Assembly: GCF_000214705.1 (NCBI RefSeq)
Contig: NC_015573.1
Span: 2,487,001-2,551,000, forward strand
Reading direction: 5' to 3'
DNA length: 64,000 nt
Source: Desulfofundulus kuznetsovii DSM 6115
GTDB lineage: Bacteria > Bacillota > Desulfotomaculia > Desulfotomaculales > Desulfovirgulaceae
Both the position numbers and the translations under genes were made by a program. The notes beneath the pieces are model-generated. The model ran no database searches and had not been told where the DNA came from. It worked only from the letters and a program-made list of their open reading frames with translations. Shown piece after piece: positions 7,309 to 64,000 of the stretch. Position 1 is the stretch's first letter. Each line of letters begins with the position of its first letter.

Positions 7309-8535
7309 TTAAACTACCGGCTGCTGTTGGCATAAACAATCGGATAATAAATGGCCGTCCTTCTGGACAGCCCGCGGGCTTGCTATTTCTTGCTTATCAG
7401 CAAATTCGAGAGTATTAATAATTAATTTGTTATAAAGATCGCTTTTTCTCCAACCAAGCCATTCTTTTGTCCTCTCGACTCGTGGCAATAACCATCGCGT
7501 CCGCCACCAGTCAGCCAAATCACTAAAAGGCAAATCTCGGTAAACAGGTTCAGTAGTACGACCCTCCATGTAATCCGTAAGATTATCTACTAAAGGAAAT
7601 AAAAAAGCTTCTCTTTTAACATTATGGCGCAATAAATCAGAAGAAAAACCGAGACGCTCCAATGCTCTAACCATAATTTGCCACTTTATACGTGGACCTA
7701 CACCAAAGCCTCCCCTTGTTGAAATCCCCTGGGACTCAAGAAACTCTTTAAACAAAGGGTAAAGTTCCATTAGATGGAAACTACCGTATCCGTCTGTATA
7801 TCCCAATGAGTAAGCAATATGTAAGGATTTATAACGCAACCGATTATATAAGCTACTTCTACCAAAAGCACTGGTAGTAGTCAGAGCAACAAGATGTGCT
7901 GGCAACAGACGCTTCTCCATCTCAGTCATACGATCACCGTATTTTAGCCGGTAAGCTTCCCGAACTTCGTTAGATGCTGCTGCCATGGCCACCAATTTGC
8001 CTCCCAGTAAATAGTTATAGGGAGGCACAGCACCAAGCGTTTGAATATCCATCGTTTGATTGACCAGTTCAACCTTCTTACCCTCGGGGTAGCGAAAGAG
8101 ACGATCGCGAGGTGGAAAGCTTAGGGGTGGTGATTGCAAAGCCAGAATGCCAATTAGTTTATCATTATTATTGTCAAACACTAGAAACCTTAAGCGGCGG
8201 CCATATCCCTTGGAAAAGGGCAAAGACCAAAGTAAGCGCGCGATTCTGAAAAGAGCATGTTGTTTTCTATTTTTTACTTCAACCAGTACAGGGGATATTT
8301 TTTCCGGAACTACTTCTACACCATCAGCAAAAAAATTAATGAAACGCGGCAAGTTTTTAGCAAGCCACTCTTGACGTCTTGCAAGTTCCAGCAGACGAGC
8401 TGGCTCGTGAAGCTGACGAAGCGCATCCTTTGTATCGCCGCAGTATGTCAGGTACCCGTCTTGATCAATATCAAATCCTACAGACTCAAGTTTCTCCAAA
8501 ACTAATCTATGTAATTCCTTTGCTGAGATTGACAA
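7309..8535 (-). CDS. DUF4338 / DruA-like protein, third gene of a candidate defence operon
   Basis: The protein is 408 residues, with TTG start at 8535 and GGAGGG 8 bases upstream. The middle part reads RRLRFLVFDNNNDKLIGILAL, PPRDRLFRYP, then QTLGAVPPYNYLLGGKLVAM, ASNEVREAYRLKYG, LTTTSAFGRSSLYNRLRY, GYTDGYGSFH, and near the C-terminus PFSDLADWWRTRWLLPR. The order (a self-reporting beta core, GGKL, the RDR block and the G-x-T-x-G-x-G-x-F-H segment) matches what I recall of DUF4338, the family of Druantia DruA, but I could not check it. It is 14 bp after herA and ends at a strong terminator. DruA's biochemistry is not settled. Here it would be the effector or sensor of a NurA-HerA machine (inference). 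Confidence 0.6.
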   Translation of the reverse strand: MSISAKELHRLVLEKLESVGFDIDQDGYLTYCGDTKDALRQLHEPARLLELARRQEWLAKNLPRFINFFADGVEVVPEKISPVLVEVKNRKQHALFRIARLLWSLPFSKGYGRRLRFLVFDNNNDKLIGILALQSPPLSFPPRDRLFRYPEGKKVELVNQTMDIQTLGAVPPYNYLLGGKLVAMAAASNEVREAYRLKYGDRMTEMEKRLLPAHLVALTTTSAFGRSSLYNRLRYKSLHIAYSLGYTDGYGSFHLMELYPLFKEFLESQGISTRGGFGVGPRIKWQIMVRALERLGFSSDLLRHNVKREAFLFPLVDNLTDYMEGRTTEPVYRDLPFSDLADWWRTRWLLPRVERTKEWLGWRKSDLYNKLIINTLEFADKQEIASPRAVQKDGHLLSDCLCQQQPVV

Positions 8536-8549
8536 TTAAACTTCCCTCC

Positions 8550-10373
8550 TTACGTAAGAACCAAACCATTGGCTTGTACAAATTCCTCAACCGTATTAAA
8601 GGCATTGAAGAACAAAGGTGTCCCGGCGAATGAAAGTGGAGATACCGGCCCAGTTGTCATAAAAGAATATTCTCGAGATGATACATCAAACGAAGAATGG
8701 GGATCTCTAAAAAGCCGATATAACTCCAGGGCTTTACTGCGACCACCCACCAGTTCGCTTAAAGCCTTAAACTCGGTACCCATACCTAATCCAAAACCAA
8801 AGAAAAATATTCGCAACTGATCTAAAATCTCCCGGTGTAAGCTGGATAAAGTCTGACTTATGAACATCCAACCTACACCATATTTACGAGTAGTGCGAGC
8901 AGCATCGATCAAAATATGCCTTATGCCTTTCTTTTCTTCAATGCCTGGGTCTTCCCGTGGAGCTAAGCGGTGGGCCTCATCTATTAGAACCAATGTATTT
9001 AAGCTGCGTTCCTCTTTGTATGCTCCTTCCGCAGCAGTACGGATACCCTCTAAGAGACGTCTAATAACCAGGGCTTGGATGGTATCATTCCAAAAAAGAA
9101 ACGAAGATTTATTGCCTTCTACAATTAGTTCACCAAACAAATTTGCTTGCGACTCTTGAGTTGTTGTAGTATTAAGTTGTTCGCCAGAAAGATCTATTAC
9201 TACTAGTGGACGGGATTTTTGGCCTGGCTTCAAGAGACCATATAAAATGCTTTCCACTTTTCGAGCACCCGCGCGATCTTCTCGAAAAAGTTGAGCTACC
9301 GGAAGCCAATACTTCTCGTAGTACAAGTCAGGAACGGCTTGGGAAAAAACATCTTTAAAACGTACTCTGGAAGATTCACTTCGATAAAAAATTTTCTGTA
9401 CGTTATCATCGCCTAAAAGGTTCCAGGCTTTATCAAAGGCGGACCGTTTATACAGATCTTTTAAAGTAATTCCGTCCCGCTCCATTCTCTGAACTAAGGT
9501 ATCTACAGCCACTTCCCGATTTTCGCCTTTGGGCATGCTGAGTTCTTGAAAGAACGGTGATTCATATAATATCTTCGCAAAAAGTTCCCACCTGTCCAAA
9601 ACTAGATCGCGTACGCTGTAAATATATACGGGCTTCCCTAGATTCTTAACAATATTCCTCAATGGTAATTGAAATTCGCCAGTAGGGCGACCCTGAAAAT
9701 CTTTAGCAAACTCTCCTTGAGGATCTAAAACTAATAGAGCCATTCCCGTATATCGGGTATAAGCTAATAAAATCATCTTTGCCAATACGGATTTCCCGGA
9801 TCCTGTTTTACCAAAAATACCGATATGATACGCCTCACCAGCACCATCAGCACCTCTATCAAAATGTTTAAACCATAGTGGCAAGAGAGGCCTGGAACCA
9901 TAAACATGTCCGAGGTAGAATAGTTGCGTCCGGTAGGGCGAAAGCAACTCTTCCAATACATCATTGTTTACTAAATGAATTGGAGTACCGGTAGAAGAAA
10001 CGGAACCTAAAATGCTCGGACGGTAACCGCTTGGCCCCGCGGAAAATACTGCGCTAATCGTCATTTCCCCTGTATGTGTATCCTGGCGTTCACTTACCGC
10101 ATCTATTTTCCCACGCTGGCGAATAAGGCTACGCATGGTTGGATCTTCATGCCAAACATTGCGAAGAGTTATTTCGGTTATCTGGCCGAGCGCATAGTGT
10201 TCACGCCCGTCCTGCATATAATGAAACATTGCCAGTTCGCCCACAAGTTTTTTGCTCACAGCACTGGCAAGTATATCTAGGGTTAACTCGCTTGTAGACG
10301 AAGGTGAACCAATAATACCGATTCGCTCTGCCGAATCCACCAGCTGGCTCAGCTTTTTATCTTTAGCTTCCAT
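8550..10373 (-). CDS. herA: HerA/FtsK-type hexameric ATPase (DUF87)
   Basis: ATG at 10371-10373 follows the nurA stop by one base (TAA-C-ATG). The 607-residue protein has an N-terminal HAS-barrel-like region (about 10-150), then Walker A GIFGKTGSGKS near 186-195, LVLDPQGEFAKDF, Walker B LVLIDEAHRLAP, an arginine-rich RTTRKYG and the C-terminal GFGLGMGTEFKALSELVGG. In archaea HerA pumps DNA for the NurA nuclease in end resection; in bacteria HerA homologues are common in anti-phage systems. Codon use is clearly more AT-rich than the core genes nearby, which suggests transfer. No helicase or SIR2/DUF4297 partner is present. Confidence 0.9.
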   Translation of the reverse strand: MEAKDKKLSQLVDSAERIGIIGSPSSTSELTLDILASAVSKKLVGELAMFHYMQDGREHYALGQITEITLRNVWHEDPTMRSLIRQRGKIDAVSERQDTHTGEMTISAVFSAGPSGYRPSILGSVSSTGTPIHLVNNDVLEELLSPYRTQLFYLGHVYGSRPLLPLWFKHFDRGADGAGEAYHIGIFGKTGSGKSVLAKMILLAYTRYTGMALLVLDPQGEFAKDFQGRPTGEFQLPLRNIVKNLGKPVYIYSVRDLVLDRWELFAKILYESPFFQELSMPKGENREVAVDTLVQRMERDGITLKDLYKRSAFDKAWNLLGDDNVQKIFYRSESSRVRFKDVFSQAVPDLYYEKYWLPVAQLFREDRAGARKVESILYGLLKPGQKSRPLVVIDLSGEQLNTTTTQESQANLFGELIVEGNKSSFLFWNDTIQALVIRRLLEGIRTAAEGAYKEERSLNTLVLIDEAHRLAPREDPGIEEKKGIRHILIDAARTTRKYGVGWMFISQTLSSLHREILDQLRIFFFGFGLGMGTEFKALSELVGGRSKALELYRLFRDPHSSFDVSSREYSFMTTGPVSPLSFAGTPLFFNAFNTVEEFVQANGLVLT

Positions 10374-11805: not shown

Positions 11806-11839
11806 CCCGGCGGAAAACTACGAAAACATCCTCCGCCTC

Positions 11840-12355
11840 TTACAGAACCGGGCTAAACCTTTGGGGTAGCGACAAGGGCACTATCGGCACCCCGATGCTA
11901 TGTCCCCCACCCAGTACGATAGATACCGTGGGTTTGGAAAGGCTGGCAATCATTTCTGCAATAGCCAGGCCGGCTTCCACATCTCCCCCTACCGTGTTCA
12001 ATACTACCAGCACCCCTTCCACCTCCGGGCTCTGCTCCAGGGCCACCAGTTGGGGGATGAGGTGTTCATACTTGGTAGTCTTGTTTTGGGGGGGCAACAC
12101 CAGGTGGCCTTCAATCTGGCCGACAATAGTTAAACAGTGAATGTTGCTTTTAACTTCGGGCACGGGACTGGCTCCCAGCTCTTTGATGGATTCCATGCTT
12201 TCCTTGGTACGCCCCTGGACCCGTTGGGGTGCTGGAGAAGCCCCGGGGTGGCCAGGTTCCCGCGCGGGGGGTGTATTGGGCTCTCCCGGAGGGTTTTCCG
12301 GAGGCGTGCAGGGATACTCTCCCTCGTGACCCCATATATTCTGATCACCAGACAC
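11840..12355 (-). pseudogene. tepA: tepA (ClpP-like, translocation-enhancing protein) truncated at its 3' end
   Basis: After a Pro-rich N-terminus (GTG start at 12355 after GAGAGGA), residues about 70-152 are a good ClpP/TepA core: [60 protein letters not shown] and [10 protein letters not shown]. The catalytic-Ser region is present. The family continues for some 80 more residues (the His/Asp half), but here the frame drifts into [13 protein letters not shown] and stops. The break is at about 11880, where the accessory island begins. In Bacillus tepA lies between rnjB and spoIIIE, so spoIIIE is expected beyond the left edge. The product is probably inactive. Confidence 0.8.
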
Positions 12356-12431
12356 GCTTATCCATCCTCTCGTTAGTTTTTCTATTCTCTAGTATGGTTA
12401 TGTTACGGACAAAATACACATATAAACATAA

Positions 12432-12453
12432 ACACGGGCTGGCTAACCCGTGT
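12432..12453 (-). terminator. Terminator after the GntR gene of the lyase cluster
   Basis: ACACGGG (12432-12438) pairs with CCCGTGT (12447-12453), and the minus strand continues TTATGTTTATATG. It separates the lyase cluster from tepA. The remaining gap 12356-12582 holds nothing else that I recognise. Confidence 0.6.
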
Positions 12454-12582
12454 CTTACCCAAAGTCCTGAACCCTTGTATATTCCCCCGCCGGAGCAGTT
12501 ATGAATACCTTTACCCGGAAGACGAACCGGGGGAATGGTGGCTACCCGGAAAGCTAGGAAAAAGAATTTCAACCGCATCATT

Positions 12583-13296
12583 TCACCGGTTGCGGGAAAG
12601 TTTTATCCAGAAAGCATATTTATCAGACCGGTAAATACTTGAAAAGTATTCTACTATATTACCCTGTTTATCTCTGGATAAACGTTCTGCTGCTAACACG
12701 CCTGTCCCCGGGGTGATACCCAACAGTTGTGCGTCCTGCTCCGTGGGCTGTACGGCTGTAATCTTTTGTTCAGCTTCGTAAAGAAATATTCCGATGGACT
12801 CCAGAGCATCATATAAAGTTACATGGTTCAGATCAAAATTTGCCAGCTTGATCCCTATTTCTATTGGGTAATAAGTGCGTTCGATAGCAACAGGCATATC
12901 GTCGGCAAAACGTAACCTTTCGATGGCATAATATTTTTCAGCCCCAAGGATGGATGCTATTTCAGAATGTGACTCTACACCGTGGTAAAGGAGCCGGATG
13001 CCCGGTTTCATGCCCATCATCTTGATTGTTTCGGTAAAGCTTCTAATAGTTCCCAGCCATTCATTAATGAGGTGCGGGGAAATGAAGGTACCCTTGCCGT
13101 GGATCTTCTTCAGAATCCCTTCCCTCACCAGTGCCGATACTGCTTCCCTAACAGTGGTCCTGCTGACGGAAAACCTGCTCATCAGCTCCCTTTCACTGGG
13201 AATTTTCTCTGTATAACTGCCCTGCTCTATTTCCCTTCTTAATATTTCTTTCAACTGTATGTGCAGGGGGATTGGACTGTCGTGATCTAAAGACAT
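12583..13296 (-). CDS. GntR-family (UTRA) regulator of the glycyl-radical cluster
   Basis: The 237-residue protein has an N-terminal winged helix (LKEILRREIEQGSYTEKIPSERELMSRFSVSRTTVREAVSALVREGILKKIHGKGTFIS, of which the S-R-T-T-V-R helix is the recognition element) and a UTRA effector domain from about residue 85 that ends EYFSSIYRSDKYAFWIKL. ATG at 13296 follows GGAGAGGTG. It is the last gene of the cluster and has its own extended -10 promoter in the preceding gap. The likely effector is the substrate or a product of the lyase pathway (inference). Confidence 0.88.
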   Translation of the reverse strand: MSLDHDSPIPLHIQLKEILRREIEQGSYTEKIPSERELMSRFSVSRTTVREAVSALVREGILKKIHGKGTFISPHLINEWLGTIRSFTETIKMMGMKPGIRLLYHGVESHSEIASILGAEKYYAIERLRFADDMPVAIERTYYPIEIGIKLANFDLNHVTLYDALESIGIFLYEAEQKITAVQPTEQDAQLLGITPGTGVLAAERLSRDKQGNIVEYFSSIYRSDKYAFWIKLSRNR

Positions 13297-13343
13297 TGGT
13301 CACCTCTCCTTTAAAGATCCTCTTTCCGGAAAAATACGGCAGA

Positions 13344-13390
13344 GCCAGCTTCAAGGGAATTATACCATAACTGCAATTTGATTAACAGTT
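13344..13390 (-). promoter_or_regulatory. Extended -10 promoter and inverted repeat before gntR
   Basis: On the minus strand TATGGTATAAT ends in a TATAAT box at 13359-13364 with the TGn extension. Just upstream AACTG and CAGTT form an inverted repeat with a 12-bp centre over the -35 zone, a possible autoregulatory operator. There is no good -35 hexamer. Confidence 0.5.
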
Positions 13391-13432
13391 GCAAGGACGT
13401 GGGTTAGACGCCTTCTCCTGTTTGACAACCTA

Positions 13433-14374
13433 TCAAGACAGCCTGGTGTTCATAAATGATTGTACCAGCTCCTTCAAGGAGTTCATCTGCTCTTTTGACG
13501 GTGGTTGGACACCTTTTAACAGGTATTCCCGACCGAGATAGCGGTACTTGGATTCGCCGAAACGGTGATAGGGCAAAAGTTCGTAGCGCACCCCAGGAAT
13601 ACCCTTTAGAAAATCCAGGATGGTCAGTATATCTTCCGGTGAATCGTTAAACCCCGGAATCACCGGTGTCCTTACAATTAGCTCCCTGCCGGGGAAATGG
13701 GCGGCTAGCTGTTTTAAGTTTTGCAATATCCTGGCATTGGAAACTCCGGTATATCTTTTGTGCTTATTTGGATCCATGCATTTAAGATCGTAAAAGACAG
13801 TATCGGCCCGGGAGAGCACCTGCTCCACGCTTTCCCAGTCCGCGTAGCCGCAAGTTTCTACCGCAGTCGTTAGACCCCGTGAACGGGCTTCTTTGAGCAG
13901 TGCCGCAGCAAACCCCGCCTGTAGCAATGGCTCGCCGCCGCTTAACGTCAGCCCGCCGCCTGACCGGGCATAAAAAGGACTGTCTTCTTCCACAACTTTC
14001 AGAACTGCTGCAATACTCATGTATTTACCAAAAATCTCCAGGGCCTTAGAGGGGCAGACCGCGGCACATTCTCCACAACCGGTACACCGGCTGCGTTCGA
14101 TGCGCACTTTTTGGGTTTCCGGGTCTTCCTGGATGGCGTCATGACCGCAGACTGACAAACATAAACGGCACTCCGATGTGCCGATACATTTATTTTCATT
14201 AAAGGCCAGTTCCGGTTGCGCAGACTGGGACTCCGGATTGGCGCACCACCGGCACTTCAAAGGGCATCCTTTTAAAAAAACAATGGTTCTTATTCCGGGT
14301 CCGTCGTGAACCGAGAAGTGCTGTATGTTAAATATCAGGCCGGCCTGCTCCCCGGCAAAATAACTGTCGGCCAT
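13433..14374 (-). CDS. Glycyl-radical enzyme activating protein (radical SAM)
   Basis: The radical-SAM motif is GCPLKCRWC (C-x3-C-x2-C) near residues 37-45, preceded by the family motif SVHDGPGIRTIVFLKGC. Between it and the rest of the barrel is the usual insert with two extra 4Fe-4S clusters, CIGTSECRLCLSVCG and CTGCGECAAVCP. GGGLTLSGGEPLLQ is the SAM-binding GGE region. ATG at 14374 is preferred to the TTG one codon earlier. It installs the radical on Gly805 of the lyase encoded just upstream. A strong hairpin in the 114-bp gap may lower its expression relative to the lyase. Confidence 0.95.
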   Translation of the reverse strand: MADSYFAGEQAGLIFNIQHFSVHDGPGIRTIVFLKGCPLKCRWCANPESQSAQPELAFNENKCIGTSECRLCLSVCGHDAIQEDPETQKVRIERSRCTGCGECAAVCPSKALEIFGKYMSIAAVLKVVEEDSPFYARSGGGLTLSGGEPLLQAGFAAALLKEARSRGLTTAVETCGYADWESVEQVLSRADTVFYDLKCMDPNKHKRYTGVSNARILQNLKQLAAHFPGRELIVRTPVIPGFNDSPEDILTILDFLKGIPGVRYELLPYHRFGESKYRYLGREYLLKGVQPPSKEQMNSLKELVQSFMNTRLS

Positions 14375-14410
14375 CAAATCCTACCCCCTCTTTGGGAAAT
14401 AAAGAGTGCG

Positions 14411-14435
14411 GGTCCTGCTCAAAATGAGCAGGACC
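14411..14435 (-). promoter_or_regulatory. Intercistronic hairpin between lyase and activase
   Basis: GGTCCTGCTCA (14411-14421) and TGAGCAGGACC (14425-14435) form an 11-bp perfect stem with an AAA loop. The minus strand then has CACTCTTTATTTCC, too few T residues for a full terminator. A partial terminator or mRNA stabiliser that keeps the activase substoichiometric is likely. Confidence 0.55.
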
Positions 14436-14488
14436 GCTAACTGGAAACTAATGCCATCGGTGGCAAACAGGGTGCCGGAACACTGGTT

Positions 14489-16978
14489 TTAAAAGGTATG
14501 TTCGGTTCTAGCTATAATTTCGTTTTGCAGTTCCGGGGAGAGGTCTACGAAGTAGGCGCTGTAACCGGCAACCCGTACCAGCAGGTTGCGGTATTTTTCC
14601 GGATTCTTCTGGGCGGCCAGCAAGGTTTCCCGGTTGATAACGTTGAACTGCAGATGCCAGAGCTTCAAATCACAGAACGTCCGGATCAGGGACATTAACT
14701 TTCTGGTTCCCTCTTCCCCGGCCACTGATGCCGGGTTTAGCTTCAGGTTTACCAGGCGAGCCGCGCGCTCCTTGGCTCCCATGCATTTGGTGGCGGCTAT
14801 GGAGAGCAGCGTTACAGTCGGCCCTTTTGTATCGGCACCTTGCGACGGGCTACCTCCGTCCGAAAGAGCCTCGCCGGCCTTTCTTCCGTTGGGAGTGGCA
14901 CCTACAATTTTCCCCAGGGGAATGTGGGCTGTAACCGGTACGTACCGCACATCCAGCTCTCCGCCAAAGGCTGTGGGATACCGCCTGGAGAAGCTTAATG
15001 CATGTTCTTCAATGGCCCGGCCTATTGAATCGGCATAAGGATCATTGTTGCCGTATTTGGGTGCGTTCAGGCACATTTGCCGGATAACTTCTTTCCCCTC
15101 AAAGTTGCTGTCCAGTGCCTCCAGCAGTTCAGCCATGGCAATCTTTTTGTCGTCGTATACCAGCTTTTTAATGGCTGCCAGGGAGTCGATCACTGTACCG
15201 TAACCAATTAAATCGTAAAAGCCCAGGTTGATACCGCCCGGTATGTCACCAGAGTGAAGGTCTTTACATTCCTTCATGCACAGGTCGTGTAATACTGAAG
15301 CCATAGGAGCAGCAAAATATTTAGGTCTTAAAGTATCTACCACATACTGCTGGATAAAGGTATGTTTTAAGACAAATTCCTGCTGTTTCAAATAGGCCTG
15401 CCAGAGTTCATCAAAAGTGCCAAAGTTTCGGGGATCACCCGTCCTGGGCCCCACCTGCTCATTGTTAAAGGCCTTTATTTTGCCGTCGTTGAGGGCCATT
15501 TCCAGCACAGCCCCCAGGTTCACCCAGGCGCAGGGGCTGGTATAAGTATCCCGGTTCACCATGCGCACTTCACTGCAGCCGGAGGCGCAGTAATCGTTTG
15601 CCTCTTCAATAGAGGCGCCTTTGGCCAGCAGTAGGGGGATGATCTCTTCGTCATTAAGGAGTTTGGGGAAGCCTGATCCCTCTTTAATAGTTTCACTGAC
15701 TTCATAAAGGAATTTGTCCGGGCTCTGGGCGTGTATTCTGGCCGCCAGGTCGGGATAATTTAGCGGAAACTCCCGTTTGGACCGCAGGATAAGATAGGAC
15801 AGCTCATTAGTGGCATCGCGCCCGTCCCGGGTCTTACCGCCAATGGTTAGCGCTTCCCAGTGGGAATAGCCCTCGGTAAAGGCTGCCCCGGCCGGCGATA
15901 CTTTCAGGTTAACGAACTGAGCCATGTTCACCCAGAGATGCTCCAGTAATTCCAGCGCCCCTTCCTCGGTAATACGTCCCTCCTCCAGATCCTTTTTGTA
16001 GTAAGGATATAAATACTGATCCATGCGCCCATTTCCGACCACAGCGCCAATGCACTGCTCCAGTCTGGAAACCACCTGGGTGAGCCATACCGATTGCACG
16101 GCTTCATGGAAAGTGCGGGCCGGATTTTCCGGTACCCACTGGCAGACACGGGCGATCTCCAGTAGCTCGCTTTTCCTCTGCTCGTCTTTTTCCCTTTCGG
16201 CCATGCTGGCGGCCAGTTGCGCGTATCGTTTAGCGAAGGTAATTACTGCCTCGCAGGCCATGATGGCCGCTTCCAAGAAGGGCTTCTTTTCCACCGTGTC
16301 CTTCGGATTGAGCGGGTCCAGAGCGGCCAGTTTCTCTTCGGCTTCTCTCTTTAAATCTCCGAAGCCTCTTTTTAACACTTTCTCGTAATCATGAACCCAC
16401 TGCAGCGAATTACGAATGCTGGCCGTCTGGGTCACCACGTATCTTTGTATAAAGATATTCTCAGAGTCAAAGATTAACTTCCTTGTTTCCTCGGGCAGAG
16501 CAGCATAAAGAAGTTCGTGAAACGTTCTGCCTTTCCAGTATGGCGCTATTTCTTCTTTGATCACCCGCACATCTTCTTCCGTAATCCGGTAGGATGTCCT
16601 GCCGGTGGTTAAACGGTCGATGGCCTTGTCCAGGAAGCTGCCGTCCAGTTCCGGGTAGATCAGCCCGTGCCTCCCCGGTCGGCCGTCCGCCCGCCCCACG
16701 ATCAGATCATTTTCCCCAATGTAAACAGGTATGTTTTCCACGATATGTTTTAATGCTTTAGCCCACCTGAGTACAATGGGCTGTCCTTCGGTTTCTTTAA
16801 AGGATTCGGTAAACAGGCGGGCCCTGTCCACACTGATCCAGGGAACGGTATGCCGGATGTCATTCAATATTTTATAAACCCTTTCCCTGCCCTTTTGCAT
16901 CTGCTTATAGTCCAGCGTGCCGGTTTGTTCTTTATAGATTCTTTCTTCCTGTGGCGTGAGAACCGTACAACAGGACAT
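14489..16978 (-). CDS. Glycyl-radical C-S lyase, isethionate sulfite-lyase-like
   Basis: The 829-residue protein is a full glycyl-radical enzyme: PFL-type N-terminal domain, Cys loop DYCASGCSEVR (C468, E470) and C-terminal glycyl loop VRVAGYSAYF (G805). Counting residues, R189 and Q193 (IRNSLQ), W374 and R678 also occur exactly at the positions I recall for Bilophila isethionate sulfite-lyase IslA, with the same 337-residue Cys-Gly spacing, unlike choline lyase or diol dehydratase. Position 682 is Val where I recall Phe, which may mean a larger substrate such as 2,3-dihydroxypropane-1-sulfonate. The expected reaction is C-S cleavage giving sulfite and a carbonyl product. AAGGGGG precedes the ATG. 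O2-sensitive, cytoplasmic. Confidence 0.8.
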   Translation of the reverse strand: MSCCTVLTPQEERIYKEQTGTLDYKQMQKGRERVYKILNDIRHTVPWISVDRARLFTESFKETEGQPIVLRWAKALKHIVENIPVYIGENDLIVGRADGRPGRHGLIYPELDGSFLDKAIDRLTTGRTSYRITEEDVRVIKEEIAPYWKGRTFHELLYAALPEETRKLIFDSENIFIQRYVVTQTASIRNSLQWVHDYEKVLKRGFGDLKREAEEKLAALDPLNPKDTVEKKPFLEAAIMACEAVITFAKRYAQLAASMAEREKDEQRKSELLEIARVCQWVPENPARTFHEAVQSVWLTQVVSRLEQCIGAVVGNGRMDQYLYPYYKKDLEEGRITEEGALELLEHLWVNMAQFVNLKVSPAGAAFTEGYSHWEALTIGGKTRDGRDATNELSYLILRSKREFPLNYPDLAARIHAQSPDKFLYEVSETIKEGSGFPKLLNDEEIIPLLLAKGASIEEANDYCASGCSEVRMVNRDTYTSPCAWVNLGAVLEMALNDGKIKAFNNEQVGPRTGDPRNFGTFDELWQAYLKQQEFVLKHTFIQQYVVDTLRPKYFAAPMASVLHDLCMKECKDLHSGDIPGGINLGFYDLIGYGTVIDSLAAIKKLVYDDKKIAMAELLEALDSNFEGKEVIRQMCLNAPKYGNNDPYADSIGRAIEEHALSFSRRYPTAFGGELDVRYVPVTAHIPLGKIVGATPNGRKAGEALSDGGSPSQGADTKGPTVTLLSIAATKCMGAKERAARLVNLKLNPASVAGEEGTRKLMSLIRTFCDLKLWHLQFNVINRETLLAAQKNPEKYRNLLVRVAGYSAYFVDLSPELQNEIIARTEHTF

Positions 16979-17077
16979 GAAGAATTCCCCCTTTTTTATA
17001 TTAAAAGTCTTTGATGAATTTACCTTCCAGCGGGGCCGGGATGCGGGCTACACCTGTCATTTTTTAAAAGCTATTTT

Positions 17078-17905
17078 TTAGATATAAAGACCACCGTTGG
17101 GGCTGATTACCTGGCCAATCATGTAGCCGGCATCATCGGAAGCCAGGTAAACGGCCAGGGAAGCATATTCTTCTATCTTGCCTATCCTACCCACAGGGAT
17201 CCACTGCATGAGACGGTTTCTTCTCTCAGGGGACATTTGGTTAATTCCCCGCATGAAGGTTTCCGTCTCGATATATCCGGGAGCAATGCAGTTGACACAT
17301 ATACCCGCACCGGCCACCTCGTGGGCCACAGACTTGGTAAAGGCCACCACGGCTCCTTTTGCAGCCGAATAGTTGGGGCTGTGGGAACTCATGGCTGAAA
17401 TCCCGGCTATTGAGGCAATATTAATGATTCTGCCATAGCCCTTATCCTCCATGATCTTGAGGGCCTCACGGGTGCAATAGAAAACGCCGTTGACATTCAC
17501 TTCAAACATGCGTTGCCATTCCTCATCGCTCATGTTGCGGGTGATCTGCAGGGAGTGCCTTGGAACCGGGGTGGTTACAAGATCCAGGTGCCTCATTCTG
17601 TCCTTCACGCCGGCTTCATGGGAACGGAAGATTCCGGCGTTATTAACCAGAATATCTATAGTGCCGAACCGTTCCAGGAGCCGGGCGAACATGTTTTTTA
17701 CCTCCTGACTGGAAGATACATCCGCCCTGATCCCCAATGCTTCGGCGCCCAGAGCTTCTATCTCCTGCACCACCTTTTGCAGCCGCTCCTCATTTCTGCC
17801 GCTGATGGCCACCTTGGCTCCTTCCCGGGCAAATGCCAGGGCAATTCCCCGTCCCAGACCGGCAGTTCCCCCGGTTATCAGTGCTACCTTATCCTTAAGT
17901 TTCAT
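17078..17905 (-). CDS. Short-chain dehydrogenase/reductase with an extra loop
   Basis: Classical SDR of about 275 residues: cofactor motif TGGTAGLG, RADVSS, NNAG, catalytic Ser in NIASIAGIS and Y-S-A-A-K. ATG at 17905 (MKLKDKVALITGG) follows GAGGGG by 6 bases and is preferred to upstream starts. About 28 extra residues (around SHEAGVKDRMRHLDLVTTP) follow NNAGIF and are not in FabG-type enzymes; they may shape the substrate site or an oligomer contact. It lies between the transporter and the lyase, so it probably oxidises or reduces the lyase substrate or its carbonyl product (sulfoacetaldehyde/isethionate or hydroxyacetone). Which one cannot be told. Confidence 0.88.
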   Translation of the reverse strand: MKLKDKVALITGGTAGLGRGIALAFAREGAKVAISGRNEERLQKVVQEIEALGAEALGIRADVSSSQEVKNMFARLLERFGTIDILVNNAGIFRSHEAGVKDRMRHLDLVTTPVPRHSLQITRNMSDEEWQRMFEVNVNGVFYCTREALKIMEDKGYGRIINIASIAGISAMSSHSPNYSAAKGAVVAFTKSVAHEVAGAGICVNCIAPGYIETETFMRGINQMSPERRNRLMQWIPVGRIGKIEEYASLAVYLASDDAGYMIGQVISPNGGLYI

Positions 17906-18018
17906 AGCCATCCCCTCTCTTTTTTCCACAATATAACACCCGAATACCCGGACGGCAGCCGCCTCCCGTTACCCTTTCCGGGATGACTGCCGTCCAGGAA
18001 TTTTAGGGTGTGTGATCC

Positions 18019-19455
18019 TTATAATTTTGCATCTTCAATAGAAAACTGAGCCTTTATCTGTTCACCGCTCAGAGTGGAACCGGTTTCCTCTACGCTGCGG
18101 CGGGCAGTTTCCTGCCCCCAAATCATGAGCGGGATCACAAACACTATAAAGGCAGCCGCCACAAACCAGAACACCGCTTTCACCCCGCCAGCGTTGAGGA
18201 TGAAAGGAATATAGTAAGCTGCCAGAACCCCGCCCAGGAGCCTGGCCACGGCTTCACCCACTCCGGTCCCTACTCCCCGCAGGTGAGTGGGGTATTGCTC
18301 GGCAATATAGATTTTGGCCGACGGCAGGGTGCCAAAGCCGAAGAAAGCCGCGATAAAACCACCAATTATTAACCCCGCCAGGCTGGAAAACTGTGCCAGC
18401 ATCACCATCCCTACAGCTGCCAGAATACTATAGATGAAGTAGACCGGTTTGCGGCCGTAAACATCGGAGAGGTAGCCGATTGCCACTTCACCGATACCGC
18501 CAATAACCATCATTGCCCCGGTGAAGAGGATGGCGTTTTCCATGGCAAACCCCCTGGTGGCAAAGATGGTCGGCGCATAAACCAGCATGGCGTACCAGCA
18601 GATCATGGAACCGGTATATAGCCCCCAGGAAACGAGGCTTCGGGACAGGTAGGGCTGTTTGAAGATTGAGGCAACCCCCACCTGTTTTTTCTCGGTCTGC
18701 TGGTTTTGCAAAGATCTGAGAATGCCGGGGTTGATCAAATTCTCATCGTGTTCCAGGCCTGCTTCATCTTCCAGGCGATTTACCAGCTTTCGTACCTCAT
18801 CTATTCGTCCCTGTTGTAGCAACCAGCGCGGTGATTCCGGAAGACACAAGGCCAATACTATAACGTAGAGTATGGGCAGTCCACCAGCAATGAAAGGAAT
18901 CCGCCAGGCCACATCCAGGGGGAATTGAGACAGAGCCCAGGCACCGACAATACTGGGCAGTACGTAGGCCGCACAAAGGATGGCGTTCTGCCAGCTAACC
19001 ACCGTACCCCGCCATTTGGCACCTACAAACTCGGAAATTAGCAGGTAAGGAATGGGGAAAACTGCACCCTCGCCCAGGCCAGCAATAAAACGCATGATAA
19101 CTACCCAGTACAGGTTGGGAATTAAAGCACCAATGCCGGTAAAAAAGGCAAACCAGGCTACACCATAGACAAGAACTTTCTTGCGGCCGAATTTATCAAT
19201 CAGCCGACCGGCAAAATAAACACCGATAACTATGCCCAAGGTGGAAGACGTACCTAGCAGGCCAACATCGCCCGGAGTCAGGTTCCAAAGCTTCTTTAAG
19301 ACAAGCACCGTTTGACCCACAATGCCGATATCAAAGGCTTCAATGACCCAGGTTAGGGCCAGCAGAGCCATGATCAGAATGGTACTCCTGGTAACCGGAA
19401 TCCGATCCAATCGCGTCAGGAGATTAATCTCTTCTTTTCTGGCAACGCCGGTCAT
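18019..19455 (-). CDS. MFS transporter (metabolite:H+ symporter type)
   Basis: The 478-residue protein starts with ATG at 19455 after AAGGAGG. It has about 12 membrane segments and both MFS signatures, GRLIDKFGRKKV after TM2 and GYLSDVYGRKPV after TM8, plus RFIAGLGEGAVFPIP and PESPRWLLQQGR before the central loop, as in the sugar/aromatic-acid:H+ symporters. It is first in the operon with the SDR, lyase and activase, so it probably imports the sulfonate substrate. The call of the substrate depends wholly on the lyase. Confidence 0.85.
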   Translation of the reverse strand: MTGVARKEEINLLTRLDRIPVTRSTILIMALLALTWVIEAFDIGIVGQTVLVLKKLWNLTPGDVGLLGTSSTLGIVIGVYFAGRLIDKFGRKKVLVYGVAWFAFFTGIGALIPNLYWVVIMRFIAGLGEGAVFPIPYLLISEFVGAKWRGTVVSWQNAILCAAYVLPSIVGAWALSQFPLDVAWRIPFIAGGLPILYVIVLALCLPESPRWLLQQGRIDEVRKLVNRLEDEAGLEHDENLINPGILRSLQNQQTEKKQVGVASIFKQPYLSRSLVSWGLYTGSMICWYAMLVYAPTIFATRGFAMENAILFTGAMMVIGGIGEVAIGYLSDVYGRKPVYFIYSILAAVGMVMLAQFSSLAGLIIGGFIAAFFGFGTLPSAKIYIAEQYPTHLRGVGTGVGEAVARLLGGVLAAYYIPFILNAGGVKAVFWFVAAAFIVFVIPLMIWGQETARRSVEETGSTLSGEQIKAQFSIEDAKL

Positions 19456-19912
19456 TGTTATCCTCCTTTTCTGGAGCAAAACTGGTTTGGTATTTTTTAT
19501 TTTCACTCATGTGGTTTACAAGGATAAAACCACCTGGTTCAGCACCTCTTAGATCCACTATGAATCCTCAAATGGTATGAATTTTATCCGTAAACAATTA
19601 TTACAGGAGACCAATGTTCGTGAATTTGCATGTACCCCTCCCTTTTTTAAATAATAATTACCTTTCCCTAACCTTACTTTGTCCTGCTCTTATCAACTCT
19701 TTTCTCACCACCCCTTAACTTCTTTATTCTAAGATCCTCTGCCCAATGGGCCAGAATTTTTCAACCACCCGGACCTGCCAGGCAACATTGTGATTGCTGG
19801 GCATGAACTTGTGATAACAAGCACATGTATAATAAAACATTAAACAGAAAAATAACCCAGTGCTTCCTTATTCAGACGACGTTACGTAATGACGTACGTA
19901 CCAGTTATTCAT
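19456..19912 (-). other. Long untranslated leader of the lyase operon
   Basis: From the promoter at 19913-19941 to the ATG at 19455 there are about 450 bases without a coding frame. I see short local inverted repeats but no known riboswitch. The stretch 19942-20090 up to the rnj terminator holds nothing that I recognise. Confidence 0.4.
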
Positions 19913-19941
19913 ATTATAAAATGACCAGTCATCTTTGTCAA
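19913..19941 (-). promoter_or_regulatory. Consensus sigma-A promoter with operator in the spacer
   Basis: On the minus strand TTGACA (19936-19941), a 17-bp spacer and TATAAT (19913-19918) are all perfect. The spacer carries the palindrome ATGACCAGTCAT (19921-19932), and palindromic TACGTA runs follow near +1 (19880-19901). A perfect promoter whose spacer is an operator suggests tight repression, probably by the cluster's GntR protein (inference). Confidence 0.75.
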
Positions 19942-20090
19942 CTAGCCGACAAAAAAGTTGTGAAACCGTCTGTGATATTGTCAGGGTAAAATCCGTCAGT
20001 GAAAATGTTTTGAAGCTATAGGGCACATTAAGGCCAAACCGACCTTTAAAAACCTTTAAAAATAAAAATAAAATTCATGGAAATAAATAA

Positions 20091-20122
20091 GCCGGAAGGC
20101 CTTTGTTCCACGGCTTTCCGGC
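20091..20122 (-). terminator. Terminator after rnj
   Basis: GCCGGAAGGCC and GGCTTTCCGGC form a stem, and the minus strand continues TTATTTATTT. It closes the dap-rnj operon. Confidence 0.75.
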
Positions 20123-20139
20123 CCTTTATGATTCGGTGA

Positions 20140-21804
20140 TCATACTTCCATGATGATGGGTAAAATCATGGGCCTTCTCCTTGTTTTTTCATAGAGGAAC
20201 TTCCCTAACACGTCTCTTACCTGTGCCTTAATAGCCGCCCATTCCGAAAGACCCCGATCGTTGCATTTTTCCAGGGCCTCCTTGACCCTTTGCCGGGCTT
20301 CTTCCATCAATTGCTCGGATTCCCGCACATAAACAAAGCCCCTGGAAACAATATCCGGCCCGGCCATAACCTGGCCCAATTCGCGATTGATGGTCACGAC
20401 CACGATCAGGATCCCGTCCTGGGAAAGCTGCCTGCGGTCCCGCAGTACAATGTTACCCACATCACCCACGCCCAAACCATCCACCAGCACGCGCCCGGCC
20501 GTTACCCGCCCGGCAATACGACCGGAACGCCGGGTAAACTCCAGCACCTGGCCGTTTTCAGCCACAAAAATATTTTCCGCTGGAATGCCCATACTGCGGG
20601 CCAGATCCGCATGTTTGATCAACATGCGGTACTCACCATGCACCGGCACGAAAAACCGGGGCTTGACCAGGTTGATCATCAGTTTAAGTTCTTCCTGGCT
20701 GGGGTGGCCGCTCACATGAATGCCTGAAACCGCCTCATAGATAACATGGGCACCCTGCTTGAACAGTTGATCGATAATCCGCGCCACCAGCTTTTCGTTG
20801 CCTGGAATGGGAATGGCGGAAATAATGATGGTATCACCGGGAAGAATTTCCACCTGCCGGTGATCCCCCAGGGCCATCCTGGTAAGAGCTGACATGGGCT
20901 CACCCTGGCTGCCCGTACACAAGAAGACCACTTTATTTTTAGGTAGACGGTTGGCCTCTTCCAGTTCTACCAGGGTTCCCTCGGGAATATGAAGGTAACC
21001 CAGTTCGTGGGCTATATTGATCACATTAATCATGCTGCGGCCAATCACCGCCACCTTGCGGTCGTAACGGTGGGCGGTGGTAATGGCCTGCTGCAAGCGG
21101 TGCACATTGGAAGCAAAGGAGGCTACAATAATACGTTCTTTAGCCTGCCGGAAGGTCTCATCAAAGGTGGCCCCAACAACCCGTTCCGACATGGTATAGC
21201 CGGGCCGCTCCACGTTGGTGCTGTCAGACAGCAACACCAGCACGCCCCGTTCCCCTAATTGGGCGAAACGATAAAAGTCGGTAACCTCTCCGTCCACCGG
21301 GGTTTGATCGATTTTAAAGTCCCCGGTGTGCACAATAACTCCCACCGGCGTGTGAACGGCCACGGCTACCGCATCAGGAATACTGTGGGACACCCGGATA
21401 AATTCTACCTTAAAAGGACCGATCGTCACCGTATCCCGGGGCTTAACCACCTGCAAATTTGCCTCGCCGGCCAATCCTTGTTCCTTAAGCTTACCCTGGA
21501 GCAAACCCAGGGTAAGCCTGGTCCCGTAGATGGGCACGTTCAACTGCTTAAGTACATAAGGCAGGGCACCGATGTGATCCTCGTGTCCGTGGGTAAGCAC
21601 TATACCGCGCACAGCATCTTTATTTTCCAGGAGATAAGTGATATCGGGGATCACCACGTCGATCCCCAACATCTCTTCCTCCGGAAACATTAAACCGCAG
21701 TCTATAACCAGAATATTTTCCCCGAATCTCACCGCCATCATGTTTTTCCCGATCTCACCAAGTCCCCCGAGGGGGATCAGAGCCAGTCTTGGTTCCTTGG
21801 CCAA
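20140..21804 (-). CDS. rnj: Ribonuclease J
   Basis: The metallo-beta-lactamase/beta-CASP RNase has the zinc motif LTHGHEDHIGA, GDFKID, LLSDSTN and the C-terminal beta-CASP blocks (GRSMINV, CTGSQGEPMSALTRMA, ISGHPSQEE-type VSGHPSQEELK). At 554 residues it is the standard length. The start is TTG at 21804 (MAKEPRLAL) after AGGAGGT, not the longer frame. It processes and degrades mRNA 5' to 3'. It follows dapA as in Bacillus; normally tepA and spoIIIE come next, but here 7.7 kb of accessory genes intervene. Confidence 0.97.
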   Translation of the reverse strand: MAKEPRLALIPLGGLGEIGKNMMAVRFGENILVIDCGLMFPEEEMLGIDVVIPDITYLLENKDAVRGIVLTHGHEDHIGALPYVLKQLNVPIYGTRLTLGLLQGKLKEQGLAGEANLQVVKPRDTVTIGPFKVEFIRVSHSIPDAVAVAVHTPVGVIVHTGDFKIDQTPVDGEVTDFYRFAQLGERGVLVLLSDSTNVERPGYTMSERVVGATFDETFRQAKERIIVASFASNVHRLQQAITTAHRYDRKVAVIGRSMINVINIAHELGYLHIPEGTLVELEEANRLPKNKVVFLCTGSQGEPMSALTRMALGDHRQVEILPGDTIIISAIPIPGNEKLVARIIDQLFKQGAHVIYEAVSGIHVSGHPSQEELKLMINLVKPRFFVPVHGEYRMLIKHADLARSMGIPAENIFVAENGQVLEFTRRSGRIAGRVTAGRVLVDGLGVGDVGNIVLRDRRQLSQDGILIVVVTINRELGQVMAGPDIVSRGFVYVRESEQLMEEARQRVKEALEKCNDRGLSEWAAIKAQVRDVLGKFLYEKTRRRPMILPIIMEV

Positions 21805-63423: not shown

Positions 63424-64000
63424 ATGAGCCCGGCCGTTTTCTTCCTGACCGGCTTTGCCGGAGGATTTTTATATCGCGCCGGTGGTCCGGCCTACCAGTT
63501 GTTTACCGTCCCCCTGCTGATCATTACCGGCCTGCCCCTACCCGCAGCTGTAGGCAGCGGCATTCTCCTCAATGCAGCCAGCAAACTAAAGTTGATATAC
63601 TGCCCTGAAATCACGCGGCACGCTCATAAACGGGTGGGCATGACCGTGGCCATTCTATCCCTGCCCTTTATGTTAACCGGAAAGCAACTCCTCCTCTGGC
63701 TCAGCATCCTGCCGGAAGGCATGGCGGTCCTCGTTTTTACCTACAGCACCGTTCTGGTCATCACCGCCCTCATCGCTGCCGGCCGTTATCGCCACTACTA
63801 CCAGTTCGGCTTTGAGGACGAAAACCCGCTACCCCCGGGCGGCCTGCTCTGGAGATACCCCCTTGCGGTACCGGGGCTCGCATTCCCCAAACATATCACG
63901 GTAGGCCGGGTAAGTCTAGTCGGTGGGTCCATCGGCCTTTGTGCGGGTCTGTTTGGATTAAATACCCGTGCCCTGCTGGAACCGCTTTTGATGTACGTGA
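63424..64000 (+). CDS. TauE/SafE-like (TSUP) membrane permease, N-terminal part
   Basis: The frame opens with ATG at 63424 after GGGGAGGG and runs off the window. It reads MSPAVFFLTGFAGGFLYRAG, then FTVPLLIITGLPLPAAVGSG and later VSLVGGSIGLCAGLFGLNTR. The G-G-x-x-Y-x-x-x-G / P-L-L-I-x-x-G-L-P repeat is the TSUP half-signature of sulfite/sulfonate exporters. Four to five membrane segments are seen in 192 residues. The link to sulfite release by the lyase at 14.5 kb is tempting but only inferred from family. Confidence 0.65.
   Translation, partial: MSPAVFFLTGFAGGFLYRAGGPAYQLFTVPLLIITGLPLPAAVGSGILLNAASKLKLIYCPEITRHAHKRVGMTVAILSLPFMLTGKQLLLWLSILPEGMAVLVFTYSTVLVITALIAAGRYRHYYQFGFEDENPLPPGGLLWRYPLAVPGLAFPKHITVGRVSLVGGSIGLCAGLFGLNTRALLEPLLMYV

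Follow-up and report, generated by a model that had tools for sequence, protein, structure and literature searches.

The locus described here raises the question of which sulfonate might be cleaved by a glycyl radical enzyme (GRE) of Desulfofundulus kuznetsovii DSM 6115. Radical C-S lyases release sulfite from organosulfonates, which then becomes sulfide, and two substrates have been described for them, isethionate and 2,3-dihydroxypropane-1-sulfonate (DHPS). The GRE gene lies at 14489-16978 on the minus strand of a 64,000-nucleotide stretch (NC_015573.1, positions 2,487,001 to 2,551,000; hereafter the window, with positions counted from its first letter) and encodes 829 amino acids. Judged from its residues, the enzyme is very probably a C-S lyase that acts on a 2-hydroxysulfonate and releases sulfite, and its substrate is probably larger than isethionate. 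Our best reading, to which we give a probability of a little under one half, is a sulfite lyase for a three-carbon (C3) 2-hydroxysulfonate, most likely DHPS. It is based on the pocket residues, the co-occurrence of a short-chain dehydrogenase/reductase (SDR), the exchange of the GRE in a related operon for one with the same pocket, a Cupriavidus precedent for the pairing of a major facilitator superfamily (MFS) transporter with an SDR, and the growth traits of the host.

Pocket residues and family placement

The GRE was the sole PF02901 match of the genome (653 bits; 3,601,386 bases, one contig) and has the marks of the pyruvate formate-lyase (PFL)-like superfamily, namely the PFL domain, the Cys loop, the C-terminal Gly loop RVAGYSA and an adjoining activase gene. 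Counted from the Met, its residues include R189, L192, Q193, A312, W374, C468, E470, R678, V680, V682 and G805. The codons for the thiyl residue Cys468, for Val682 (Phe in IslA, Ile in HpsG) and for the glycyl radical residue Gly805 are found at 15575-15577, 14933-14935 and 14564-14566, respectively, all on the minus strand. The residue numbers that an earlier note on this sequence had given for Bilophila IslA proved correct, as PMC8473560 names Arg189, Gln193, Trp374, Cys468, Glu470, Arg678, Phe682 and Gly805, and the GRE shares all of them save Phe682. The Cys-Gly spacing of 337 and Val682, also taken from that note, were both read from the sequence again and the codons were rechecked. As the GRE and Bilophila IslA differ little in length and can be aligned with hardly any gaps, the identical numbering reflects homology and is not a separate coincidence. 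We take the solved IseG 5ymr to be that of D. vulgaris, in line with the comparison in PMC8473560.

The D. vulgaris IseG is reported to hold the sulfonate with Arg187, Gln191 and Arg676, and its Phe680, Ile190 and Thr310 touch the remainder of isethionate (PMC6453916). The C-S lyase residues Arg189, Gln193, Arg678 and Glu470 are all present in the GRE, and the R189/Q193/R678 trio supports assignment as a C-S lyase. Relatives were found with patterns of the query from the best 80 of 146 places, giving a set of 124 distinct GREs that is not a census. The trio was complete in 103 of these. It is a real marker, because at least one of the three residues was missing from the other 21 (A193 in seven, N189/N193/K678 in six, N193 alone in three, and five distant outgroup GREs).

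In the alignment, IseG Ile190, Thr310 and Phe680 correspond to positions 192, 312 and 682 of the Bilophila numbering. All three differ in the GRE, which has L/A/V in place of the I/T/F usual in IslA and IseG. With the HpsG pocket (L192/A312/I682) it shares two of three residues, the third being V for I. Both L192 and A312 were found in all five members of the clade to which the GRE belongs (the kuznetsovii clade). Among the 103 GREs with a complete trio, the combinations at 192-312-682 were I-T-F in 72, L-T-F in 10 and N-T-F in one (the IslA type, 83 in total), L-A-I in nine, L-A-V in six, L-A-Q in one, and T or S at 312 plus V at 682 in four. The L-A-I group consists of 6lon and eight relatives at least 68% identical to it; all nine HpsG rows carry L-A-I. 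The L-A-V group is the kuznetsovii clade plus the GRE of locus L128. L192 also occurs in 10 IslA-type rows. By this comparison and the column comparison below, the shift towards HpsG concerns the carbon contacts of the pocket and does not extend to the entire protein. The earlier proposal that Val682 makes a larger, DHPS-accepting pocket holds in that the pocket is altered in the direction of HpsG. Val682 is, however, only one of three changed carbon contacts, and the V682 pocket may be an ancestral state rather than a DHPS-specific enlargement. The idea of Val682 as a unique enlargement was dropped, since GREs other than IslA frequently have V or I at this position.

Searching solved proteins with phmmer gave 5ymr (1122 bits), 7kq3 (1059) and 6lon (1034; titled 'Crystal structure of HPSG') as the nearest, followed by 588 bits for the next; identities were 60%, 56% and 55%, respectively. 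Phylogenies were calculated from hand-chosen sets of 64 and 54 rows (quick trees) and 26 rows (a careful tree with ultrafast bootstrap and Shimodaira-Hasegawa-like approximate likelihood ratio support). A further quick tree had 85 rows, which L020 entered as its final 827 residues and L036 as its initial 815; both are absent from the later trees. Approximately unbiased (AU) tests were run on a quick tree. In the 26-row tree the kuznetsovii clade was supported at 100/99, and HpsG (100/100) was nested among IslA-type rows. IslA plus HpsG was supported at 98/99, with L128 added at 100/99, and with L138 added at 99/98; the kuznetsovii clade fell outside all three groups. The 64- and 54-row trees concur in placing it outside IslA plus HpsG. 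So does the 85-row tree, rooted on one very distant row, where it was sister to a group of GREs with A193 (94). Joining the kuznetsovii clade, L128 and L093 as one clade was rejected (AU p 3.2e-55), although this group was named after viewing a tree, so that its p value should be read as no more than indicative.

On these alignments and trees the GRE is neither IslA nor HpsG and forms its own clade outside both. It did not fall with the diol dehydratases or in another non-sulfonate clade. The earlier description of a sulfonate C-S lyase like IslA with one odd residue therefore stands for the C-S lyase, given the trio and the nearest solved proteins, and fails for IslA, a name ruled out by both the tree and the pocket. 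Comparing the AlphaFold model of the GRE (predicted local distance difference test, pLDDT, 78.1) with known structures gave CutC 40.0, IslA 39.4, HpsG 39.0 and IseG 39.0. These rank nearly alike, and the fold therefore leaves the family undecided.

Two points limit the novelty of the clade. IslA-like proteins from the order of the host are 61-64% identical to the GRE (Bilophila IslA 56%), and the thresholds given for the published IslA/IseG networks are near 60-62% identity (PMC6386719, PMC6453916), so that the GRE may have entered those clusters via intermediates. Similar gene clusters are also reported in many Desulfotomaculum strains (PMC6386719). No paper joining 'kuznetsovii' with 'isethionate' or 'glycyl radical' was found in the literature searched; the network of the HpsG discovery paper, which might include the kuznetsovii clade, lay outside that search.

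Conservation of the operon and its SDR

The GRE belongs to a set of five minus-strand genes (12583-19455), which by rising coordinate encode a GntR regulator, the activase, the GRE, an SDR and an MFS transporter. The SDR and MFS genes named in the earlier note were found at 17078-17905 and 18019-19455, and its end coordinate, 19455, agrees with the MFS ATG, with AAGGAGGA just before it. The activase, the regulator and the L192/A312 changes go beyond its content. The activase (13433-14377) has a radical S-adenosylmethionine domain (PF04055) and ferredoxin-like 4Fe-4S (Fer4) domains; it scored 474 bits against the NCBIfam HpsH model (cut-off 430), a score not set against any IslA activase. The GntR-UTRA regulator (12583-13296; PF00392 and PF07702), a candidate repressor of the operon, has orthologues 60-71% identical near five other operons. 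The transporter (PF07690/PF00083) is a candidate sulfonate importer. Association of IseG with TRAP (tripartite ATP-independent periplasmic) transporters or microcompartments is reported in PMC6453916. The earlier note had stressed an MFS in place of a TRAP importer, and an MFS is indeed present; the arrangement is not new, as IseG of D. piger DSM 749 is paired with one in the same report.

The SDR (PF13561/PF00106), with its ATG start set by relatives, has the Tyr-x3-Lys motif and a conserved insertion (~25-30 residues after NNAG) with positions conserved across six operons in the alignment. A search of the PDB with a profile of the SDR alignment gave no match at 1e-60. Its AlphaFold model was poor (pLDDT 57.8) and was not used.

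MFS, SDR, GRE and activase genes with a nearby GntR gene recur in L124, L125, L126 and L128, and also in L123, whose MFS gene is truncated where the contig stops. Among 113 genomes of the order, 16 had a GRE match at E < 1e-250, whereas the SDR (E < 1e-70) was found in six, exactly the six operon carriers, and in none of the 10 other GRE-carrying genomes (Fisher p 1.2e-4). Those 10 comprise seven with IslA-like GREs (pocket residues read for six) and three of an N189/K678 type. In a separate draw of 398 genomes of the phylum, three had the SDR at 1e-65: the host itself, one with the gene beside a GRE of another pocket (L138; H192, N193 and F374), and one in which no GRE gene adjoins it (L146). 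The SDR is a more telling partner of the operon than the MFS transporter. Plasmid searches with the SDR and MFS proteins gave only distant matches (nine records and one record, respectively; two neighbourhoods were viewed).

The operon of L128 (genome G417) differs from the others in two genes. Its SDR is 77-85% identical to the others' (74-85% among themselves), its MFS transporter 70-73% (70-78%) and its GntR protein 54-66% (61-77%), and it also keeps the promoter element described below. By contrast, its GRE is 56-57% identical to the others' (73-87% among themselves) and its activase 50-54% (59-66%). Because only these two diverge, the GRE and activase look as though they were swapped together as a unit, with the transporter, SDR and regulator retained. 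Much faster change of the same two genes would give the same picture, but the tree speaks against it. Both GRE lineages have L192/Q193/A312/V682 in the same operon and therefore likely share a substrate, although descent from an L-A-V ancestor could explain the match as well. L128 is, in effect, a built-in replicate, in which a GRE of another lineage combines the same pocket with the same operon.

Proposed pathway and competing substrates

The sequence itself shows how the genes are arranged, which residues the GRE has, where it falls in the tree, which genes occur together, the promoter element and the dsrAB genes, and from these we infer the following pathway. The MFS carrier would import a C3 2-hydroxysulfonate, most likely DHPS, and the activase would install the radical on Gly805 of the GRE. 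This radical would pass to Cys468 as a thiyl radical, which would abstract hydrogen from the hydroxyl-bearing carbon. With R189, Q193 and R678 binding the sulfonate, Glu470 would accept the hydroxyl proton as sulfite departs, leaving a ketone (hydroxyacetone if the substrate is DHPS). The freed sulfite would then be turned into sulfide by DsrAB. The sulfite-reducing host assumed in the earlier note is supported: matches to dsrA (593 bits against a cut-off of 393) and dsrB (524 bits against 342) were found in the genome, and PMC10907483 lists sulphite as an electron acceptor of D. kuznetsovii and propanediols, including 1,2-propanediol, as supporting growth. The SDR could convert another stereoisomer or a keto form to the lyase substrate, as an HpsO-like enzyme, or it could reduce hydroxyacetone to 1,2-propanediol; the sulfonate and the ketone product seem about equally probable as its target. 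In this way the kuznetsovii clade would carry radical C-S lyase chemistry into spore-forming sulfate reducers, including the thermophile D. kuznetsovii.

One close precedent is HpsG (6lon), the DHPS sulfite-lyase of Bilophila wadsworthia, with its activase HpsH. The GRE shares with it the R/Q/R trio, L192, A312, the Cys/Glu/Gly residues, an adjoining activase and a sulfite-reducing host. It differs in overall identity, in forming a separate clade and in V682 for I682, and its operon is unlike the HpsG loci in having an MFS transporter, a GntR regulator and another kind of SDR. HpsG is reported to favour DHPS over isethionate ~100-fold, and IslA to be unable to use DHPS (PMC8397734). A second precedent, compared by description only, is the hpsRNOUP-suyAB cluster of Cupriavidus pinatubonensis, in which the MFS transporter HpsU and the PF13561 enzyme HpsO serve for DHPS; unlike the present operon it is described without a GRE, with DHPS oxidised to sulfolactate and then handled by SuyAB (PMC11382572). 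The SDR carries PF13561 as HpsO-type enzymes do, a comparison at the level of the family.

Several results weigh against DHPS as the substrate. A single clade of the kuznetsovii clade and HpsG was rejected (log-likelihood 163 lower, AU p 2.4e-92); because of this, and because the kuznetsovii clade lies outside IslA plus HpsG, DHPS is without support from orthology. At the eight columns that split 35 IslA rows from nine HpsG rows (at least 90%), the clade agrees with IslA at three, with HpsG at two and with neither at three. Outgroup clades with a broken sulfonate trio likewise have V or I at 682 and a small residue at 312. Among solved proteins the SDR matched generic FabG-type enzymes best, with no score above 178 bits. 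Of eight HpsG loci only L197 and L198, which are close relatives, had an SDR gene; it follows the activase there, and its product is 31% identical to the operon SDR. Finally, a TauE/SafE-family gene that adjoins the activase in L123 and L128 speaks for the DHPS reading, but none is in the window's own operon; the nearest, at 63442-64000 and running off the window end (61 bits, one of 11 such matches in the genome), is ~44 kb off.

All eight HpsG loci had an activase, and four of the six SDR-free ones were on contigs of 9 kb or less. SDRs as general companions of HpsG were withdrawn as a candidate, given the two of eight. The L198 SDR was nearest to gluconate 5-dehydrogenase models, and HpsO is set beside D-gluconate dehydrogenase in PMC11131964.

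A sulfite lyase for another 2-hydroxyalkane-1-sulfonate, such as 2-hydroxypropanesulfonate, sulfolactate or a C4 sulfo-sugar alcohol, is a less likely alternative; the SDR would then form the 2-hydroxy compound from a ketosulfonate. The separate clade would suit such an enzyme, as would Val682, which leaves at least as much room as Ile. The insertion in the SDR and its match to a D-mannonate oxidoreductase model close to it in length (182 bits against a cut-off of 281; among its weaker matches and not the best) hint at a larger or anionic substrate, and the L138 GRE, with its different pocket, has a related SDR (58% identical). Against this, the L192 and A312 of HpsG are kept throughout the clade, and in a column comparison we noticed no additional basic residue in the pocket that might bind another acid group. 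About equally likely is a further functional class of GRE sulfonate lyases, in which a dedicated SDR would make or sort a 2-hydroxysulfonate other than isethionate or DHPS in a two-step pathway of Gram-positive sulfate reducers, with GRE and activase exchanged as a module and the transporter, SDR and regulator defining the substrate.

That the GRE is a divergent isethionate lyase tolerating V682 appears improbable. In this case the SDR would reduce sulfoacetaldehyde to isethionate or acetaldehyde to ethanol; the sulfoacetaldehyde reductase IsfD is presumably also an SDR-type enzyme. The GRE is nearer the D. vulgaris IseG than HpsG, shares the residue numbering, the sulfonate trio and the catalytic residues of IslA and IseG, and has an MFS partner as the D. 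piger IseG does (PMC6453916). IsfD is known (PMC6616044), HpsG too is reported to cleave isethionate (PMC13219744), and IslA F682A still turns isethionate over, but its catalytic efficiency is reduced to 23 per s per M, against 1200 before the change (PMC8473560). All three carbon contacts differ from those of the solved IslA and IseG, identity to them is 56-60%, and the SDR was found with none of the seven IslA-like GREs of the order. The kuznetsovii clade offers a clean test of which three pocket residues fix the substrate.

A dehydratase acting on DHPS or a diol, to which the title of the best NCBIfam model (NF048011, HpsG, '(2S)-3-sulfopropanediol dehydratase') and the tie of CutC-type chains with IslA and HpsG in structure would point, is highly improbable, since the same model scored an IslA-type protein (85% identical to 5ymr; 1578 bits) and 6lon (1509) above the GRE (1450, cut-off 1000), the HpfG DHPS dehydratase model (NF048009, Klebsiella) gave 493 bits against a cut-off of 1000, and the IseG residues Arg187, Gln191 and Arg676, which CutC and other GREs are said in PMC6453916 to lack, have equivalents in the GRE. 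With those two proteins outscoring the GRE, the dehydratase title is no evidence, and the reaction reported for HpsG is that of a sulfite-lyase, unlike the title (PMC8397734, PMC12890257). Because all 10 sequences of a test panel passed the NF048011 cut-off, among them a protein of the N189/K678 type (1099 bits), the model cannot separate IslA, HpsG and the kuznetsovii clade, and naming the GRE HpsG from this match was dropped. Counts of DHPS users based on the model would be unreliable, as it also names IslA-type and more distant proteins.

Promoter, flanking segment and other GRE loci

Upstream of the MFS gene lies a sigma-A-like promoter (19913-19941, minus strand), with TTGACA at 19941-19936, a 17-bp spacer and TATAAT at 19918-19913; TTGACA was identical in five of five regions. 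Directly after the -10 is a conserved element, AACTGGTACGTACGTC (19891-19906, minus strand), seen as AACTGGTACG(T/G)ACGT in all five readable MFS upstream regions, at 182 to 564 bases from the MFS start. The element is a candidate site from which the GntR protein would repress the operon, but plain shared descent is possible. It falls short of a perfect palindrome. No copy of its 8-base core was found in L123, where the contig ends inside the MFS gene. A palindromic operator form had no match in the window at up to three mismatches and occurred at 11 places in the genome, versus nine for a reversed control. An Rfam scan of 12300-20200 gave one sub-threshold match only.

By blastn break points, the whole operon lies in a segment (12417-20075) absent from four of four same-genus relatives examined. 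In all four, the gene that starts near 12416 in the window comes 70-924 bases after rnjA; in the fifth relative, 1.2 kb separates rnjA from the end of its contig. The SDR was found in none of the five. Gain of the operon in D. kuznetsovii is the simplest reading, with loss in the other species as the alternative. Composition is like that of the neighbours (GC content 0.518 for the GRE gene, 0.535 for rnjA and 0.530 for the window). The gene beside the segment, at 11823-12416, is short (171 codons), had no NCBIfam match at 1e-15, and is one that we take to be TepA/ClpP-like. Its counterpart is a short frame of 186 codons in L212 and has 297 codons in L213. In the window this gene borders a block of low GC content (0.43) with two genes that resemble NurA and HerA.

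Other GRE clades were seen in the comparison. GREs of the A193 type (Poribacteria, Abyssobacteria and Myxococcota; L007, L008, L032, L033, L041, L062 and L204) are 58-63% identical to the GRE and of similar length; in L007 the next gene after the GRE encodes an SDR, and in L204 an SDR gene lies ~5 kb from the GRE. They have Ala for Q193 and Gly for A312, and their sulfonate site therefore differs. A clade with N189, N193, F374, K678 and V682, and so an altered sulfonate site, was found in L127, L129, L130, L094, L095 and L136, of which L127 (G447) is a same-genus relative of the host. A small amidohydrolase gene often neighbours IslA-type and some other GREs (L131, L133, L134, L139, L149-L154, L199 and L201); the L134 product, the only one scanned, is a PF04909 protein. 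The Gram-positive loci L133 and L154 have IslA-type GREs near genes resembling those for microcompartment shell proteins. In L132, a second IslA-like GRE gene (13884-17930) is split around a 413-aa open reading frame, a further copy of which lies at 7382-8623 of the same locus, and this is probably a mobile element.

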